A DNA stretch of 20,310 nucleotides. It comes from a virus. The notes beneath the pieces were generated by a model. That model ran no database searches. It worked only from the letters and a program-made list of their open reading frames with translations, and had not been told where the DNA came from. The stretch is taken from IMG/VR virus record IMGVR_UViG_3300047352_000586, positions 1 through 20,310 of that record. The stretch is one strand, 5' to 3'. Shown here piece by piece: positions 5,195-20,310 of the stretch. A program made the position numbers and the translations under genes. How positions within the stretch are numbered: position 1 is the stretch's first letter; every line of letters begins with the position of its first letter.

Positions 5195-6397
5195 TTATCG
5201 TTTACTTTTAATCTTCAACTTAGAGCTACTAGCACTGCTTGAAATTGAGCGTACGGTCCAGCCGTTAGAAGCTTTGACGTTTTCATGAGTCCCTCTCGGA
5301 TCCATATCAATGTTCTTAGCTTTAGCCATACTATTTTTAATTGCATCGGATTTACCTTGCTCATAAAAATGATTCGCAATCGCATCAGCGTTCATAGCGG
5401 TAAATAAAGACTTATGGTACCCGGCAGCATCCTTCATTTCGTTTTTATCATTCAAGAACTTCTTGACAAAATTATTAATGTCGCTTTGAGTAGTCTTAAC
5501 CTGGTCTGTATTGTTTACTTTAAAACGAAATTTCTTTTCACCAACATTGAAATCAAAACCTTTGAAATCATTAGAAAAAAGATTTTCTGTTTTATTTTTA
5601 AATATAGACGCCTGGTGTTCAGCTATTTTAGTTGACTCTTCATTGTCTTTTTTATAGCGATTAAAAAATTCAACCGCTTTTTGTTGTTCTGGATTTAATC
5701 TTGATCCAGCTTTAATTTCTTCGTAATAATTACTTTTTAATTTTTCAAGGTGCTGTTTTGCTTTAGCGGCCTCTTCTTTAAAAGCAATTTTAGCTTTACG
5801 TATATCTTTTGGCTCATCTAGTTCTTCATCATACGAAAAGTCCTCCATAAGAACTTCTATATCCTCTTTGTCTAAATGAGGTTTTGTTGTTTCGTAATAC
5901 TCCCTAATAAGCTGCGCTTCATTTAATGCAGAATAATCGGTATTAAGTTTTACGTAATCTTCCAAGCTACCGCCTGTTTCATTTATAAACTCTACAACTT
6001 TTTGAATATTTTCTGGTAAAGGTGCGCCAGTGTCTTGAGAATGTTGAATTTCTTGCTCAACTTCTTCTTGTAACTCTTGTGTTTGTTCCTTTACTTCTTC
6101 TTCCGTTATTTCTTCTAATACGGTTTCTTCATTTTGTACGGGCTGGTCTTCATCTTGGACGGGCTCCCGTACTTCTTCAACCACTTCTTCGCTACTTGGC
6201 GTGTTTTCGGATTCTCCGACAGTATCATTGCTTGCATCTGCGCTTTGTTCTTGAACGGCATCTTCTTGTGGTTTATTTAATTCGGCTAAGTTTACTTTAA
6301 TAACCCCGTCATCATATGACATTGGGCCATTATCTTCTGTAGGTTGTTCTACAACTTGATCGTTTGTTTCTAGAACTTCTTCTGTATTTTCTGACAT
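5195..6397 (-). CDS. Putative capsid scaffold protein
   Basis: This 400-residue protein lies between portal and major capsid, the usual scaffold position. Residues 1 to about 125 are extremely acidic and low in complexity (runs such as EEITEEEVKEQTQELQEE), predicting disorder or coiled coil. A helical middle follows (VVEFINETGGSLEDYVKLN, then QLIREYYETTKPHLDKED). A Lys/Glu coiled-coil region lies at about 200-260. The C terminus is Ser-rich and strongly basic (SSSASSSKLKIKSKR), as in scaffold proteins that bind the capsid through a positively charged tail. No protease triad is evident, so capsid maturation, if proteolytic, would need another enzyme. ATG at 6397; the stop is 21 bases before the capsid start. 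The role is inferred from position and composition. Confidence 0.75.
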   Translation of the reverse strand: MSENTEEVLETNDQVVEQPTEDNGPMSYDDGVIKVNLAELNKPQEDAVQEQSADASNDTVGESENTPSSEEVVEEVREPVQDEDQPVQNEETVLEEITEEEVKEQTQELQEEVEQEIQHSQDTGAPLPENIQKVVEFINETGGSLEDYVKLNTDYSALNEAQLIREYYETTKPHLDKEDIEVLMEDFSYDEELDEPKDIRKAKIAFKEEAAKAKQHLEKLKSNYYEEIKAGSRLNPEQQKAVEFFNRYKKDNEESTKIAEHQASIFKNKTENLFSNDFKGFDFNVGEKKFRFKVNNTDQVKTTQSDINNFVKKFLNDKNEMKDAAGYHKSLFTAMNADAIANHFYEQGKSDAIKNSMAKAKNIDMDPRGTHENVKASNGWTVRSISSSASSSKLKIKSKR

Positions 6398-11074: not shown

Positions 11075-11349
11075 TATTTAGATCTTTTTTCAGCAAAACC
11101 TTTAAAAGCCTTTTTTTCTATTTCTTTTTTAGGTTTATTTTCAAGCATATTTTCCTCCTCTTCAATACGGCTAAGTATTTCAAAGGCATCGAATATAGCT
11201 AGCTTTTTAGTAGCTGCTGCGTTTTTGAGTCTGTCGGCTGATATATCATCATCCGAATCTACAATAGCTTCTTTAGCTACTTTGATTAACTCCTCAACTG
11301 CTCGCTGCCCAGCTTGGATTATATTCTTCTTCGTTTCCTTGGTATTCAT
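11074..11349 (-). CDS. Small helical protein, possible terminase small subunit
   Basis: I chose the ATG at 11349 (91 residues, starting MNTKETKKN) over an in-frame ATG at 11394. The shorter form starts where I remember related proteins starting, and it reduces the overlap with the upstream gene from 101 to 56 bases. The protein is almost entirely helical: IIQAGQRAVEELIKVAKEA, an acidic turn (DSDDDISADR), then LKNAAATKKLAIFDAFEIL and a Lys/Glu-rich tail. It ends in TAATG with terL. Small terminase subunits commonly sit just before terL and bind the packaging site, so this is the best candidate in the window. No clear helix-turn-helix is visible and the protein is shorter than most small terminases. 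The function remains an inference from position. Confidence 0.6.
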   Translation of the reverse strand: MNTKETKKNIIQAGQRAVEELIKVAKEAIVDSDDDISADRLKNAAATKKLAIFDAFEILSRIEEEENMLENKPKKEIEKKAFKGFAEKRSK

Positions 11350-11893
11350 ATTTAATTGTAATTTGATTGGTGGGTATTCGATAGAGCTTTTCATTGTTTA
11401 TTACAAACTCATATTCCATACCCGGCCTAAAGCCAACAAGGTCGCCAATATTTAAATTTTTTAGCGATGGATCTTTTACTTTTAAAACGCCTATTGCGGG
11501 TTTTTCAAAGTTTATTGAAAACATTTTGTTTTCTTTTATAGGTTTAACAAAGTTAAAACCTTTACACGCATTCCAGTTAATTATTTTTTTGTACGCATAT
11601 ATTTGATCGGGCGATACAAAAAACATATTTTCTTTGTAATAGCTACGGCTATTTTTTTCTACCCCCCTTATATCTCTATACCTTCTGAATACATTATGGT
11701 GCACAATTACTTCGTCACCCACCTCAATACCGCTTGTATTTTTTGCAGGAGTATAAATAACTATGCCAATCCTACTAACAAAATTATGGTCCTGCAAATC
11801 GGTATTTAATATTAAACTTTTGCCATTAATTATTTTTTTATTATTGTTCCTACCAGTTTTGGGGCTAATAATAAAATCAAAAACACCTTCCAT
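11294..11893 (-). CDS. Tandem GroES-like double-barrel protein
   Basis: This 199-residue protein begins at an ATG directly abutting the TAA of the preceding gene. It reads as two GroES-type halves. Residues about 25-101 contain SRIGIVIYTPAKN, IEVGDEVIVHHNVF and, after a charged loop, KENMFFVSPDQIYAYK. Residues about 113-183 contain FVKPIKEN, AIGVLKVKDPSLKNLNIGD, LVGFRPGMEYEFVINNEKL and YRIPTNQITIKYEY. Each half matches the GroES pattern G-V-V, V-K-V-G-D-x-V, then a strand with M-x-E-x-D-I-L-A near its end. Neither half shows the hydrophobic GGIVL-type mobile loop that docks on GroEL, so it may be a structural relative rather than a working co-chaperonin. The last 55 bases overlap the next gene. 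Fold assignment is by eye. Confidence 0.7.
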   Translation of the reverse strand: MEGVFDFIISPKTGRNNNKKIINGKSLILNTDLQDHNFVSRIGIVIYTPAKNTSGIEVGDEVIVHHNVFRRYRDIRGVEKNSRSYYKENMFFVSPDQIYAYKKIINWNACKGFNFVKPIKENKMFSINFEKPAIGVLKVKDPSLKNLNIGDLVGFRPGMEYEFVINNEKLYRIPTNQITIKYEYQGNEEEYNPSWAASS

Positions 11894-12647: not shown

Positions 12648-13038
12648 TTTTTATTATTTTTTTAGCTTTTTCCCATGTTCTACCCACAAAGTAAGCTCCG
12701 TAAACTGTTATTAATAAAGATTGAAAAATTGGTATATAGTCTTGAGTTATTTTAAACTCCCCTATATTGCCATCAAAAAAACATAGCGCCGTAAATATAA
12801 CAGTTAAATATATAAGAACCATGGGTCTTATGTTTTTAGATAAAAACGAATCTGAACTCATGTCCGCTTCCCACCTTGCAGTCACCTGATCCTGAGCATC
12901 TTTGTCCGCTCGCTCTAGCAGCTCTTCAACTTTTAGTTTAGCCGCAAGTCTTTCTTCATCAGTAGTTACTAGGTCATCTATTACTTTACCTATGTCTTTG
13001 ACGAGGCCTCCGGTTATAAATTGAAGAATTTTTTTCAT
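12640..13038 (-). CDS. Holin, 3TM family
   Basis: This 132-residue protein resembles the Gram-negative 3TM holin family (GTA_holin_3TM type). Its hallmark is the stretch ARWEADMSSDSFLSKNIRP just before the first membrane span. Residues 1-20 form an amphipathic helix (ILQFITGGLVKDIGKVIDDL) and 28-55 a charged helix. Membrane spans lie at about 72-88 (MVLIYLTVIFTALCFF) and 103-119 (IPIFQSLLITVYGAYFVG), followed by a basic tail. Holins make inner-membrane holes that time lysis. The ATG overlaps the stop of the preceding basic-protein gene as TAATG. No endolysin is recognisable next to it in this window, so the muralytic partner probably lies elsewhere. Confidence 0.78.
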   Translation of the reverse strand: MKKILQFITGGLVKDIGKVIDDLVTTDEERLAAKLKVEELLERADKDAQDQVTARWEADMSSDSFLSKNIRPMVLIYLTVIFTALCFFDGNIGEFKITQDYIPIFQSLLITVYGAYFVGRTWEKAKKIIKND

Positions 13039-14075
13039 TATTTATATACGCGTTTTACTTTAGGCGGATTTTTCTTAAGCTCTTTAAGATTGCCTTTTTT
13101 TTCTGCTTTTTTTATAAATTTTGCTTTAGCTAGCGCTTTTTCTTTTTTTTCTTTTTGCTGCTTAGCTGTTTGCTTAGCGGCTGATGACTTTTTAGGCTCA
13201 ATAGCTTTATCCGCTTGTTTGGCTGCTCTTTTCTTTATACGTTGTTCACGCTTATATAATCTACGAGCTTTTGCTGTATTGCCGCTTTCAAGAGCTTCAA
13301 TACCTTTTTCTCTAGTTTTTTGCGCTCTGGATGTTTTTCGCTCAGATCTTTTAGCTGCCTTTTCGTTTGTTATTTTTGAAGCTTTTGGCGTAGTAAGCAC
13401 ATCGGCAGTAGGTTTTTTAGATTCAATTGTAACTTTAGGCTTAATAGTAGAAGTTGTTTTTTCTGTAGTACTTCTATTTGTTGGTCCAACGCCGTATGCT
13501 TTATTAATTTGGTTTTGGTAACGATTGTATTCAGCAGACCCTTTAGTAGCTTTATTTCTTTTTGAAATAATACTATCTAATTTAGGCTGTGAGGCTTTTG
13601 CATATCTATATGTGCCTTTTTTCATTTTACCGCGAGTGTCACCTTTATATGAGCTTACGTCAATTCCTTTGCGCTCCAACACATCTTTTAATTCTCTATT
13701 TGCTTTTGTTGATCCAGTTTTATTTCCGCTAGCCTCTTTGACGGGCTGTATCGTTTGGGTTTGATATTTTGGGTTTTTAACCTTACGACCTCTTTTATTT
13801 CTAATAAATTCTTTAGACGCAAGATCCTTAGCTTTTTTAGCTGCTTCAGCTTTAGCTAATTGTTCTCTCCTACTCTTATCTGCGGCGAGTGATTTTTTTC
13901 TAGCTTCGTTTGCCTTTTGACGATTAGATCTATTATCTTTAGCCGGCGATGGAGCTTTCATTTTTACAGGTGCCCCCATATCTAATAATGGCTGAGTCAC
14001 CATGCCTCCCTGAGTAGTTCTTTTAATTTTAGATGTAATTGGCGTGCAGCCGCTTGATTTTTTATCGTATGCCAT
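13038..14075 (-). CDS. Highly basic Lys/Arg-rich protein with PITSKIKR tag
   Basis: This 345-residue protein (ATG at 14075) is strongly basic and low in complexity, dominated by Lys, Ala, Arg, Ser and Thr, with no membrane span. Residues 12-19 read PITSKIKR, matching residues 3-10 of the 324-residue protein encoded further upstream. Residues about 36-43 carry VKMKAPSP, one copy of the KMK[S/A]P peptide seen in two other proteins of this cluster. The remainder is mostly charged helix or disorder (KKSLAADKSRREQLAKAEAA; later KRAAKQADKAIEPKKSSAAK). Such composition fits a DNA- or capsid-interior-binding protein, perhaps ejected with or packed against the genome. The role is inferred; I do not recognise a named family. 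It starts 2 bases after the small Cys-motif gene and ends in TAATG with the holin. Confidence 0.75.
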   Translation of the reverse strand: MAYDKKSSGCTPITSKIKRTTQGGMVTQPLLDMGAPVKMKAPSPAKDNRSNRQKANEARKKSLAADKSRREQLAKAEAAKKAKDLASKEFIRNKRGRKVKNPKYQTQTIQPVKEASGNKTGSTKANRELKDVLERKGIDVSSYKGDTRGKMKKGTYRYAKASQPKLDSIISKRNKATKGSAEYNRYQNQINKAYGVGPTNRSTTEKTTSTIKPKVTIESKKPTADVLTTPKASKITNEKAAKRSERKTSRAQKTREKGIEALESGNTAKARRLYKREQRIKKRAAKQADKAIEPKKSSAAKQTAKQQKEKKEKALAKAKFIKKAEKKGNLKELKKNPPKVKRVYK

Positions 14076-14077
14076 GA

Positions 14078-14224
14078 TTATTTATTTTTATACGGGAATA
14101 TAGTATTTAATGCTTCTTTTCTTTTTTTGCAACCACACCCGCCAGGTATTTTATCGGCAAGTTTTTTTATTCCAGTTGCTTTTGTAAATTTTTCTATTGA
14201 GTCTCCTAGTCCTTTTGATTCCAT
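14078..14224 (-). CDS. Small CGC-motif phage protein (48 residues)
   Basis: An ATG at 14224, four bases after the stop of the upstream gene, gives a 48-residue protein starting MESKGLGDSIEKFTKATGIK and ending GGCGCKKRKEALNTIFPYKNK, apart from a few residues between. A longer version from a TTG at 14341 would overlap the upstream gene by 113 bases and is less likely. The helix followed by a Cys-Gly-Cys turn, a basic stretch and LNxxFPYK is a pattern I remember from many small marine phage proteins, with no known function. The two close cysteines could bind a metal together with a partner, but the pair alone is not a complete zinc site. The neighbouring basic proteins suggest a shared structural or packaging task. 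Confidence 0.65.
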   Translation of the reverse strand: MESKGLGDSIEKFTKATGIKKLADKIPGGCGCKKRKEALNTIFPYKNK

Positions 14225-14228
14225 AATA

Positions 14229-14552
14229 TTAACTAAATCTACTGCAGCACCATCTTCTTCTAGCCGCTCTACCTCTTTCACCGGTCCAGCTTTTAGATCT
14301 GCTGCAAAATGCTTTTTGTCTCTTATAAGGCTTTGTGCCAACTTTAGCTTTACAGTTTGTAACTGCTTTCTTTAGCTTACTACCGGGGTTATCTCTTCTA
14401 TATTTATCAACACCAGCCTGTGTCATACCTCCTCCTGCAGCAGCTCCCTCTTTGCTTTTGGACTTTACCTCATTGTAATAGCCTAAAGATTTCTTGCGGG
14501 ACGGCGCGGCGGGCTTTTTTTTGAATGGTGAGTTTGCTTGAATATACGACAT
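14229..14552 (-). CDS. Small basic virion-associated-type protein (GGMT...YRRxNPGSKL family)
   Basis: This 107-residue protein (ATG at 14552, 6 bases after the previous stop) is strongly basic. The core GGGMTQAGVDKYRRDNPGSK, then LKKAVTNCKAKVG and KRQKAFCSRSKSWTGERG, is a sequence I recognise from short proteins of many marine phages, where it normally ends in RRRWNC. Here the end reads RRRWCCSRFS, slightly longer than I expect. It starts with MSYIQANSPFKKKP, sharing the SPFK peptide with the 136-residue protein two genes upstream. Four cysteines (one mid-chain, one in FCSR and a CC pair) might form a metal site. No function is known to me; the motif is conserved but uncharacterised. Confidence 0.72.
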   Translation of the reverse strand: MSYIQANSPFKKKPAAPSRKKSLGYYNEVKSKSKEGAAAGGGMTQAGVDKYRRDNPGSKLKKAVTNCKAKVGTKPYKRQKAFCSRSKSWTGERGRAARRRWCCSRFS

Positions 14553-14558
14553 AATTAT

Positions 14559-15533
14559 TTATTTAAAATAGCTCTTCTTAAGCGGCGCTTTCATTTTGCC
14601 TGGGGCCGCTTTTATGGCATCTTGAAGATGTTGAGGTAATTTATGTTGAGCACCTTTTAATGCTTTTGTTGCTGGGCTTTTAGGTTTTTGTGAATATCCT
14701 TTTGAGTTCATATTTGCGGGAGTTTTTAATAAATCCATATAATTAGTTGTAGGGGTATACAGATTAAGTCCTGTGTTAATATTGCCAAAGCTCGCAAATG
14801 GGTTTACAGCACCAACTTCTATAGCTCCTTCAGCTTGTCTTTTAGCATTTCTTTTAGCTTCTCTTTTAGCTATTTCTTTTTGCTCAGGCTTTGTAAGCTC
14901 CCCTTTGTCCATTTTTCTTTGGCCACCATAATATGTTCCTTGAAGACCAACGCCAGACTCTATGCCAGATTGCACGTTTTTCCTACCTGCCTGCGCTCCT
15001 TCTAAATTACCTTTAGCTTGTAGCATTTTACGTATATCACGCTGAGATAGACCTTTATCAGCTGTAAAGTTGCCTTCCATATCGAAAGTACCATACTTGC
15101 CCATTTTCCGTCTATATTTATTAACTTTTCTATTAATAAACGTATTTGCTCTTTCTTGCTTCCTAGTGCTAGCAGGACCCTGTACTTTTTTGTCTTCTTT
15201 CTTTTTATAAAGATCAGCTTCATAATCAAGATCGTCGCCCTCTACTGTTTTCTTAGTAGTAACAGTTTCTTTTTCTTCCGGCTCTTGACCTGGTGCAGCT
15301 TGTGAACATTTTCTTTTTTCACCTGTCACAGGATCTGTTCCGATAGAGCCATCTGTTTTACTACCGCAAGCTCTGCGATATATGCCGACAACTTCTTTTT
15401 CTTTTGTTTCAGTTACCTCTATTTCTTTATCATCTCCCTCTATAGAACCACCTGTAGTAGCGGTTTGTTTCATTGGGGATTCTCCGTAAGAAAATAGAGG
15501 GGATCTTTTTATTCTGCTTGTTATAGGTTTCAT
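14559..15533 (-). CDS. Basic low-complexity protein with PITSRIKR N terminus
   Basis: This 324-residue protein starts MKPITSRIKRSPLFSYGESP, so its second to tenth residues almost match residues 11-19 of the 345-residue protein. Residues 30-105 are acidic and Thr-rich (IEVTETKEKEVVG; EEKETVTTKKTVEGDD) with two cysteines 19 apart (RRACGSK and KRKCSQ). Residues 120-260 are basic helix (RKVNKYRRKMGKYGTFD; KPEQKEIAKREAKRNAKRQA). The chain ends GKMKAPLKKSYFK, another copy of the KMK[S/A]P peptide. No enzyme motif or membrane span is visible. The mix of short tag peptides at both ends and disordered charged regions suggests a protein held inside or on the capsid, but this is inference. It is 19 bases after the preceding gene. 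Confidence 0.72.
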   Translation of the reverse strand: MKPITSRIKRSPLFSYGESPMKQTATTGGSIEGDDKEIEVTETKEKEVVGIYRRACGSKTDGSIGTDPVTGEKRKCSQAAPGQEPEEKETVTTKKTVEGDDLDYEADLYKKKEDKKVQGPASTRKQERANTFINRKVNKYRRKMGKYGTFDMEGNFTADKGLSQRDIRKMLQAKGNLEGAQAGRKNVQSGIESGVGLQGTYYGGQRKMDKGELTKPEQKEIAKREAKRNAKRQAEGAIEVGAVNPFASFGNINTGLNLYTPTTNYMDLLKTPANMNSKGYSQKPKSPATKALKGAQHKLPQHLQDAIKAAPGKMKAPLKKSYFK

Positions 15534-15552
15534 ATTCTATATATAAGTATTA

Positions 15553-15963
15553 TTATTTGGGGTCTATTGCGTTGTCTGCCTGGCCTCCTCTTTTTTGGTT
15601 ACCACCTGAGGGTTGATTAACAACTACAGTTGTTTTACTTCCTCCGCCGCTATTTTCTTTTTTCTTTCCCATCATACTAGACGCCATTCCTACAACTTTC
15701 ATTGCTGTAACGGGGTCAATTTTGAAAGGTGATTTCATTTTATTTACGGAGTCTTCTTTTTCTTCTGTTTCTTCTGTTGTGCCTGTTGTGTCTGTACCTG
15801 TAAGTTGCACAAGACCCGCTCCTTTAGTCTTCTTCATTCCGGCTAAAAGATCTTCAGCACCAGCTTTTTTTACATTCCCTATATCAGCTTGACCCTCCAC
15901 TAGAGCCATATTCATTTTTACAGCGCTGCTAGCTTTATTTGTTATTGATTTTGCTTTGTACAT
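15553..15963 (-). CDS. Small basic protein with KMKSPFK peptide
   Basis: The ATG at 15963, one base after the stop of the metallopeptidase gene, gives 136 residues. A TTG at 15999 would add 12 residues but overlap that gene by 35 bases and is not needed. The protein begins MYKAKSITNKASSAVKMNMA, has a Thr/Glu-rich middle (TGTDTTGTTEETEEKEDS), then KMKSPFKIDPVTAMKVVGMA (residues about 75-94), a Met-rich short helix, and a Gly/Ser/Asn tail with TTVVVNQPSGG. The KMKSPFK peptide links it to the 324- and 345-residue proteins, and SPFK to the 107-residue protein. No known family or catalytic residues are seen. A minor virion component is possible. Confidence 0.68.
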   Translation of the reverse strand: MYKAKSITNKASSAVKMNMALVEGQADIGNVKKAGAEDLLAGMKKTKGAGLVQLTGTDTTGTTEETEEKEDSVNKMKSPFKIDPVTAMKVVGMASSMMGKKKENSGGGSKTTVVVNQPSGGNQKRGGQADNAIDPK

Positions 15964-15964
15964 G

Positions 15965-16348
15965 TTATGAATTTTTATAGGCTTCCTCTTCCCACTCAAA
16001 GTCTTTATGACCTTCGCTTGCTGATTTACCTGTTTTAATATCTACTATATGATTCCCCATTCTTTTATAAACTCTAGCTGGGGATCTGGTGTCTTTTTTC
16101 CAGGTTACAGTATTATTATCGTACTGCAATTTCCCTTGTGCCATTTGCTCTAGATGTACTTTTTCATGAGCAACCGCATCTTCTTTTTCCTTCTTACTTA
16201 ATGATTGATCAACAAATATTGTACCATCATTATTTGCTTCAGCCATAACCCCTCCTTCTAAGTTTTTCTTAAACACAGGAGTTCCGTAGCTAGATGTTTC
16301 TTTGTCTATACCGACAAGCGCTGAAAAATCTTTAAGTTTAAATGCCAT
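15965..16348 (-). CDS. Putative small zinc metallopeptidase (HExxH)
   Basis: This 127-residue protein contains AVAHEKVHLEQM: an HExxH motif at H61-E62-K63-V64-H65 in a helix, the signature of zincin peptidases, in which the two histidines bind zinc and the glutamate activates water. A downstream FEWEEEAY segment (E120-E122) could supply the third, glutamate zinc ligand, as in gluzincins. Before the motif, GTIFVDQSLSKKEKEDAV resembles the strand and helix that lead into such sites. The length is small for a peptidase, so it may be a minimal domain acting on phage proteins. It has no signal peptide. The start overlaps the winged-helix gene stop as TAATG. It could process structural proteins or inhibit a host target; the substrate cannot be told. 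Zincin assignment is by motif only. Confidence 0.65.
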   Translation of the reverse strand: MAFKLKDFSALVGIDKETSSYGTPVFKKNLEGGVMAEANNDGTIFVDQSLSKKEKEDAVAHEKVHLEQMAQGKLQYDNNTVTWKKDTRSPARVYKRMGNHIVDIKTGKSASEGHKDFEWEEEAYKNS

Positions 16349-18992: not shown

Positions 18993-20310
18993 TTAATGCG
19001 CTTTTGCTTGTATTACAATCCATTCAGATCCTGTTGAGTAAACAGCAATACCTTCGTATTGTTTTGATATTTGAAAAGAAGCAGCACCGTCTATAGTTTC
19101 GCTACCAGAAGCCGTGATATTTATTTTATCACCCGCGCCACTGGATAAAGAGCCGTCTGTTGTAATTCTTATAACTCTATTCGTGGCGGCAGCTGCCAAG
19201 GGAAGCATCAACGTATAGATACCATTACCGCCTGACCAACTAATTAAAACTAAATTATAGTTTGCGCTAATATTGGAAGAATCGCCAGAGCTAGCTGTTT
19301 TTAATTGCGGTGTTAAATATGCAAGCCCTTCACTGTTTTTTGCATTTTGTTCTGGTTGATCTATGTTTATTCTAACTTGATTGTTAGACCTATAAAGCTC
19401 TCCTCTTTCTACACCAGCTGCCGCAGCATCTGAATCGTTAGCGTATGAACTAGATAACCTAAGTGCCGGGAATAATAACCCAGATTGCGAACCAGTACCG
19501 GCTTGTATTTCTATTGCGTTTTTTCTACCAGTAGAAGAAAACCCAGTTCCAAATACAATTCTACCTGTTGCGGTTGGTGTTGCATTGTAACGTCCAATTA
19601 TAACAGTGTCATCCTCACCACCATCTTCTAGGTTTCTACCAAAAGCATAAGATTGACTTCCTGATAACACGTTATTATGCCCAAGTGCCATGGCTATTGT
19701 TGCGTCGCCGCTAATTGTATTGTTAAGCCCAAACGCGTAATCATTTGCGCTGCTAAGCGTGTTACTTTTACCTATAGCATAAGTATCAATAGCGTTTGTA
19801 GTATTACTTTTACCTAAGATGCAGCTGTCATTATTATTTATAGTATTGTTAAAACCAAGGACTATTCCATCATTTACATCGTTTAAAGTGTTTGAAGAAC
19901 CCATGGCAAAATTTGTATTTATTTCGCTAGATTCTGTAGTGTTAGTTAAAATATTTGAAGTTCCTACTACACAAGAACCACCTGATTTAACAGTGTTGTT
20001 AAAACCAGCGGTTACAATATTCCCTCCTACATTTAACTTGTCAATACCTACGTTATTTCCATCACCTGTTGCCCAAACTTGACCACCAGCTACAATGTTA
20101 TTTGCCCCTAATCCACCACAACGATTTCCTGATACTGAATTATTAGAACCAAAAGCAACAGAGCTATTACCTAAAACACTGTTGTTATCACCCGAAGTTA
20201 AAGCATTAGTGCCGGGTATGGTATTACTGGTACCCACTAGTAGGTTTCCAGCTACGTATACCCGATTCGCTAATTCAGAAACAATAGAATCTCCTAATTC
20301 GCTATTAGGG
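18993..20310 (-). CDS. Fibre/appendage protein with YadA-like repeats, 5' end outside window
   Basis: The frame is open to the window edge and encodes the last 438 residues. A GTG at 20237 lies in frame, but coding clearly continues upstream (NSELGDSIVSELANRVYV). Roughly the first 230 visible residues are repeats of about 14-18 residues with the pattern xxAFGxxNTxSGxxS, for example VAFGSNNSVSGNRC, FAMGSSNTLNDVND and YAIGKSNTLSSAND. This is the left-handed beta-roll of trimeric adhesin heads such as YadA. A linker follows (GRIVFGTGFSSTGRKNAIEI). A C-terminal beta domain of about 110 residues ends with GSETIDGAASFQISKQYEGI and VYSTGSEWIVIQAKAH. This composition suggests a trimeric fibre that may contact the host surface or decorate the head. 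Receptor and location on the virion cannot be told. Confidence 0.78.
   Translation of the reverse strand, partial: PNSELGDSIVSELANRVYVAGNLLVGTSNTIPGTNALTSGDNNSVLGNSSVAFGSNNSVSGNRCGGLGANNIVAGGQVWATGDGNNVGIDKLNVGGNIVTAGFNNTVKSGGSCVVGTSNILTNTTESSEINTNFAMGSSNTLNDVNDGIVLGFNNTINNNDSCILGKSNTTNAIDTYAIGKSNTLSSANDYAFGLNNTISGDATIAMALGHNNVLSGSQSYAFGRNLEDGGEDDTVIIGRYNATPTATGRIVFGTGFSSTGRKNAIEIQAGTGSQSGLLFPALRLSSSYANDSDAAAAGVERGELYRSNNQVRINIDQPEQNAKNSEGLAYLTPQLKTASSGDSSNISANYNLVLISWSGGNGIYTLMLPLAAAATNRVIRITTDGSLSSGAGDKINITASGSETIDGAASFQISKQYEGIAVYSTGSEWIVIQAKAH

Follow-up and report, generated by a model that had tools for sequence, protein, structure and literature searches.

Why do neighbouring phage proteins with different bodies carry the same short peptides? 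The question arises from a 20,310-nucleotide stretch of viral DNA (the window; positions 1 to 20,310 of IMG/VR record IMGVR_UViG_3300047352_000586), in which a sequence-only reading had picked out KMK[SA]P and PITS[RK]IKR in adjacent genes. The 20.3-kb window encodes a terminase (phrog_6681), a portal (phrog_6547), a capsid protein (phrog_13704), GroEL, a GroES-like protein and a holin. The hosts of its annotated relatives are Flavobacterium and Cellulophaga; the nearest of these relatives, MW202828, shares 63% terminase identity, and uncultured relatives are closer (77-89%). The tag-bearing clade consists of widespread marine viruses of Bacteroidota. Besides GroEL and an ordinary-looking 85-aa GroES, the window encodes a 199-aa GroES-like protein (11294-11893; phrog_13932). 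A beta-roll protein (18993-20237) matches PF21300 (LbR_Ice_bind) and is perhaps a tail fibre.

All of the named peptides are present where they had been placed, and they and their genes all lie on the minus strand. Gene A (136 aa; 15553..15963) carries a degenerate N-terminal tag, SITNKA (residues 6-11; 15931-15948), followed by KMKSPFK (residues 75-81; 15721-15741) and a C-terminal QADNAIDP (15559-15582). Gene B (324 aa; 14559..15533) starts with PITSRIKR (residues 3-10; 15504-15527) and continues with SPMKQT, QAEGAIEV, an LPQHLQ helix module, KMKAPLK (residues 313-319; 14577-14597) and a KKSYFK tail; its C-terminal module, KSPATKALKGAQHKLPQHLQDAIKAAPG-KMKAPLK (14577..14681), is also carried by C and E genes at other loci. 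Gene C (107 aa; 14229..14552) bears SPFKKK at residues 8-13 (14514-14531) and belongs to DUF6321 (PF19846), which it matches with 34.6 bits, above the curated cut-off of 28.5. Gene E (345 aa; 13038..14075) combines PITSKIKR (residues 12-19; 14019-14042), KMKAPSPAK (its KMKAPSP at residues 38-44; 13944-13964), GSAEYN..QNQINKAYG and QADKAIEP. Between C and E lies the conserved, untagged gene D (48 aa; 14078..14224; KGLGDS..CGC..R..LN..FPYK), a look-alike of which is present in MW202828. The tagged proteins had been described as basic, which suits gene E (net charge +67); gene A has a net charge of only +6, so the description is not true of every tagged protein. A, B, E and gene F of other loci could not be assigned convincingly to any Pfam or PHROGs family. 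In the predicted structure of the gene B protein, residues 1-19, 236-286 and 310-324 have pLDDT <50 around a helical core near 90, which places its tag and tail in predicted low-confidence ends; fold searches with this model returned nothing useful.

When the four window proteins were shuffled 20,000 times, KMK[SA]P never appeared in three of them and PITS[RK]IKR never arose. These patterns were chosen post hoc, and relatives are therefore the weightier test. Relatives were found through a conserved 146-aa neighbour of the tagged genes; 97 loci were read, of which 59 were non-redundant with at least four genes. Slots A, B, C and E were assigned from gene order, length and the C-terminal signature of gene C, because single-linkage blastp clustering had merged all four through low complexity and fusions and was dropped.

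Counted against a composition-matched expectation, as the sequence-only reading had proposed, the PIT-type tag stood out clearly. Defined loosely as [PS][IV]T-x-[RK] within the first 60 residues, it occurs in 37/45 A, 48/60 B and 37/37 E/F proteins of the 59 loci (shuffle expectation 0.3, 0.9 and 0.5). For these three neighbouring slots combined, 122 of 142 proteins carry it against ∼1.7 expected, although the loci share ancestry and the counts are therefore not independent events. Many nominally untagged B proteins begin with MANPITAIASRS, a variant of the tag, and a PIT or SIT tag is present in 37 of 40 gene A homologues. The tag also appears in 5/51 C and 5/27 G proteins (expected 0.2 each), in gene C relatives either replacing the SPFKKK-type word or standing alongside it. 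Its start residue has a median of 4-10, and none of ∼500 flanking proteins in the 59 loci (holin, metallopeptidase-like, packaging and other slots) has it. At three loci (L191 and the deeper relatives L255 and L256), a small protein has PIT at its C terminus; false C-terminal PVT matches came from antisense ORFs and were discarded. Six 60-kb genomes gave 13 strict tags in N-terminal 60 residues against ∼0.2 expected, two of them from one early-gene family, while PIT-x-[RK] anywhere in these proteomes was found 18 times against 1.8 expected, 12 times within the first 15 residues. Several other matches were rejected as tags: PITRK and PITDK in early genes lie inside conserved protein bodies, KMKS in the major capsid protein falls within a conserved body, near residue 430, and a match in MK557849 (E 0.8) is antisense to its gene and due to chance. 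Among the proteins read from the deeper relatives MW202828, elemo and phi40:1, no such tags were seen.

The lysine-rich word fared differently. As originally written, KMK[SA]P is kept in 1/40 A, 4/58 B and 2/31 E homologues and represents one local form of a less strict motif; what relatives conserve, along with the PIT tag, is the core [SA]P[FLAMIVY]K[KQTM], found in 8/40 A, 28/58 B, 24/51 C and 17/31 E proteins. This core is enriched in A, B, C, E, F and G and essentially absent elsewhere. Pattern-free motif enumeration recovered SPAK from five families and PIT.K from three; no three-family motif came out of independent shuffles, and reversing every second family reduced three-family motifs from 11 to 2, with SPAK only in the four forward families. 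Other modules are shared as well. QA[DE]xAI[DE]-like ends occur in 9/40 A, 10/58 B and 13/31 E proteins (expected ≤0.1), and KMKAPLKK terminates a conserved C-terminal helix module of gene B, GNQxxLPxxL, which three loci also have in gene C and one locus in gene E. In gene F (L005, 4370-5032; L097, 11662-12414) the tag is followed by a hydrophobic Gly/Ala-rich domain, LDVLGLVPVVGNVADGINAAWY, which has no Pfam match and recalls membrane-active domains. The small gene G (L153, 1340; L161, 5093; L126, 5686) opens with GxGPNxLG and contains a glycine-zipper-like stretch, ILGAIAGAVAPALIKGAAGALAGKLMGG.

Tagged genes are not confined to this cluster. The structural operon ends in a giant gene, and the two small basic genes that directly follow it have DUF5872-related bodies bearing PIT or GxGPxxLG together with SPFK words. 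The first gene of the late operon encodes a phrog_6437 protein with SP-x-[KR] words, homologous to gp080 of Cellulophaga phage phi40:1 (E 1e-12). The latter, itself without PIT, is annotated as a virion protein with the record note 'experimental MS/MS proteomics analysis', an annotation that we take as written; by eye, a gene near it resembles the 146-aa neighbour. In a literature search no paper was found on DUF6321, and a single one mentioned DUF5872. Genes flanking the structural operon carry shared, mostly N-terminal motifs that are conserved as peptides.

Do these motifs reflect selection, or are they the residue of how the cluster grew? Comparison of alignments by hhalign gave probabilities of 60-98% for tag against tag and at most 4% for body against body, apart from 90% for E and F, whose likeness is due to a shared C-terminal module; the tag alignments were regex-centred on the tag, which raises tag scores, and the weight rests on the tag/body contrast. 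The fixed Ile, Thr and Pro codons use two to four synonyms per family, and PITSRIKR and PITSKIKR of the window differ in 5 of 8 codons with 7 of 8 residues the same. Synonymous codons vary while the residues are held, and selection therefore acts on these tags at the peptide level. Together with the dozens of relatives that conserve the tag, these results bear out the proposal that the peptides are selected short signals and do not reflect whole-gene duplication. A relic of module shuffling, in which duplication and recombination left homologous ends without a specific role, would account for chimeric B genes whose starts are of the E type (L145, L150 and L153) and for the exchange of modules among B, C and E, yet it is improbable given this constraint and the presence of tags on unrelated domains far off in the genome. 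It is hardly more probable than cleavage, the role that would be suggested by the adjoining metallopeptidase-like gene MP (15965..16348, minus strand; HEKVH at 16154-16168, N-terminal MAFKLK at 16331-16348), for which the tags would be recognition sites in the maturation of the tagged proteins. This gene is next to the tagged genes in nearly all loci; its relatives conserve HEKVH and WExEA, with HExxH in 49 of 58, and its AF2 model (pLDDT 83.6) is nearest to the minigluzincins abylysin and selecase (Foldseek probability 0.99, with a weak E of 0.047). Eight loci without HExxH also lack gene A, as cleavage might predict, but their B and E tags are kept. The two losses are possibly one event. Furthermore, no conserved residue of scissile appearance follows the tag, and inspection of alignments A2 and A3 found no conserved Glu of the (L/I)xE prohead protease type there. 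The C-terminal PIT of three loci is evidence against a cleaved propeptide or a translation-start signal and for docking. The earlier suggestion of protease sites is thereby weakened, and we regard it as quite unlikely.

A docking partner need not be part of the virion. Binding to the phage GroEL/GroES pair beside the locus, or to a host protein, for folding or host take-over is unlikely, if somewhat less so than cleavage. GroEL, GroES and the GroES-like gene flank the tagged genes, and the motif evidence is neutral as to the partner; nonetheless, MW202828 and elemo have GroEL and no PIT tags among the proteins read, and the second tagged cluster adjoins structural genes, not chaperonins. Least probable of all is that the words are not address tags but SPKK-type motifs that bind or condense DNA. 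The proteins are Lys-rich, as the charge of gene E illustrates, and SP-x-K is recurrent, but SPKK repeats follow S/T-P-K/R-K/R, whereas the third position here is usually occupied by A, F, L or M (mostly S-P-[AFL]-K), and the tags hold a fixed position near the ends. For PIT-x-[RK], we know of no DNA-binding precedent of the SPKK type.

The original suggestions that fit best are targeting to the capsid interior and docking to a shared partner, and they rest on context, namely genes flanking the structural operon and one homologue detected by MS/MS. Tentatively, then, the peptides may be docking motifs by which a common head-assembly partner gathers mostly basic late proteins into the particle. 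Short linear motifs in disordered ends of these proteins would be bound, as P-I-T-x-[RK] and [SA]P-x-K, by one phage partner at head assembly (a scaffold, the portal or the inner head surface), and this binding would collect proteins with unrelated bodies. A scaffold candidate is encoded at 5195-6397 of the window. Once packaged, they could condense or accompany the DNA and then enter the host on infection. We infer the virion location of the window's proteins, the partner and the delivery.

A bolder and rather doubtful extension is an address code of exchangeable peptides (PIT-x-[RK], [SA]P-x-K, QA[DE]xAI[DE], GxGPxxLG and MAFK[LM]K), placed at either end and left uncleaved, by which the clade would package a varying complement of small proteins; the code would be unrelated to the T4 CTS, and each word might have its own partner. 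If the docking reading is right, a tag readable from sequence alone would predict which uncharacterised small proteins of an abundant marine phage group are carried in the particle, offer a means of cargo loading that does not depend on T4 or P1, and propose a function for the widespread domains DUF6321, DUF5872 and phrog_6437, which have no assigned one.

How do the tags compare with known systems? The phi40:1 protein gp080 (phrog_6437), annotated as a virion protein, is small, basic and homologous to the first late-operon gene of the clade with its SP-x-[KR] words, although none of the phi40:1 proteins read has a PIT tag. Marine phages and algal viruses encode small basic DUF6321 and DUF5872 proteins, and the bodies of gene C and the second tagged cluster are of these kinds; in the phages matched by gene C, the match spans the DUF6321 domain and not the tagged end. 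In phage P1, the first 30 residues of DarB direct a reporter to the capsid, and no shared consensus was found among Dar N termini (PMC9024508), whereas a consensus is the main feature of the clade tags. The internal proteins of T4, which touch packaged DNA via lysines, have only a conserved CTS in common (PMC3012670). T4 internal proteins and Alt with their CTS thus resemble the present case, in which diverse proteins share only a short end sequence. Unlike the CTS, however, the clade tags come in more than one type, are unrelated in sequence, can be C-terminal in the case of PIT, and have no conserved cleavage site after them; no T4-type prohead protease was identified. We have not filed the tags under either system because no cleavage motif was found and because we infer packaging from context. 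On the best reading, the tags would work like the T4 CTS and the P1 DarB signal but be unrelated to the T4 CTS.
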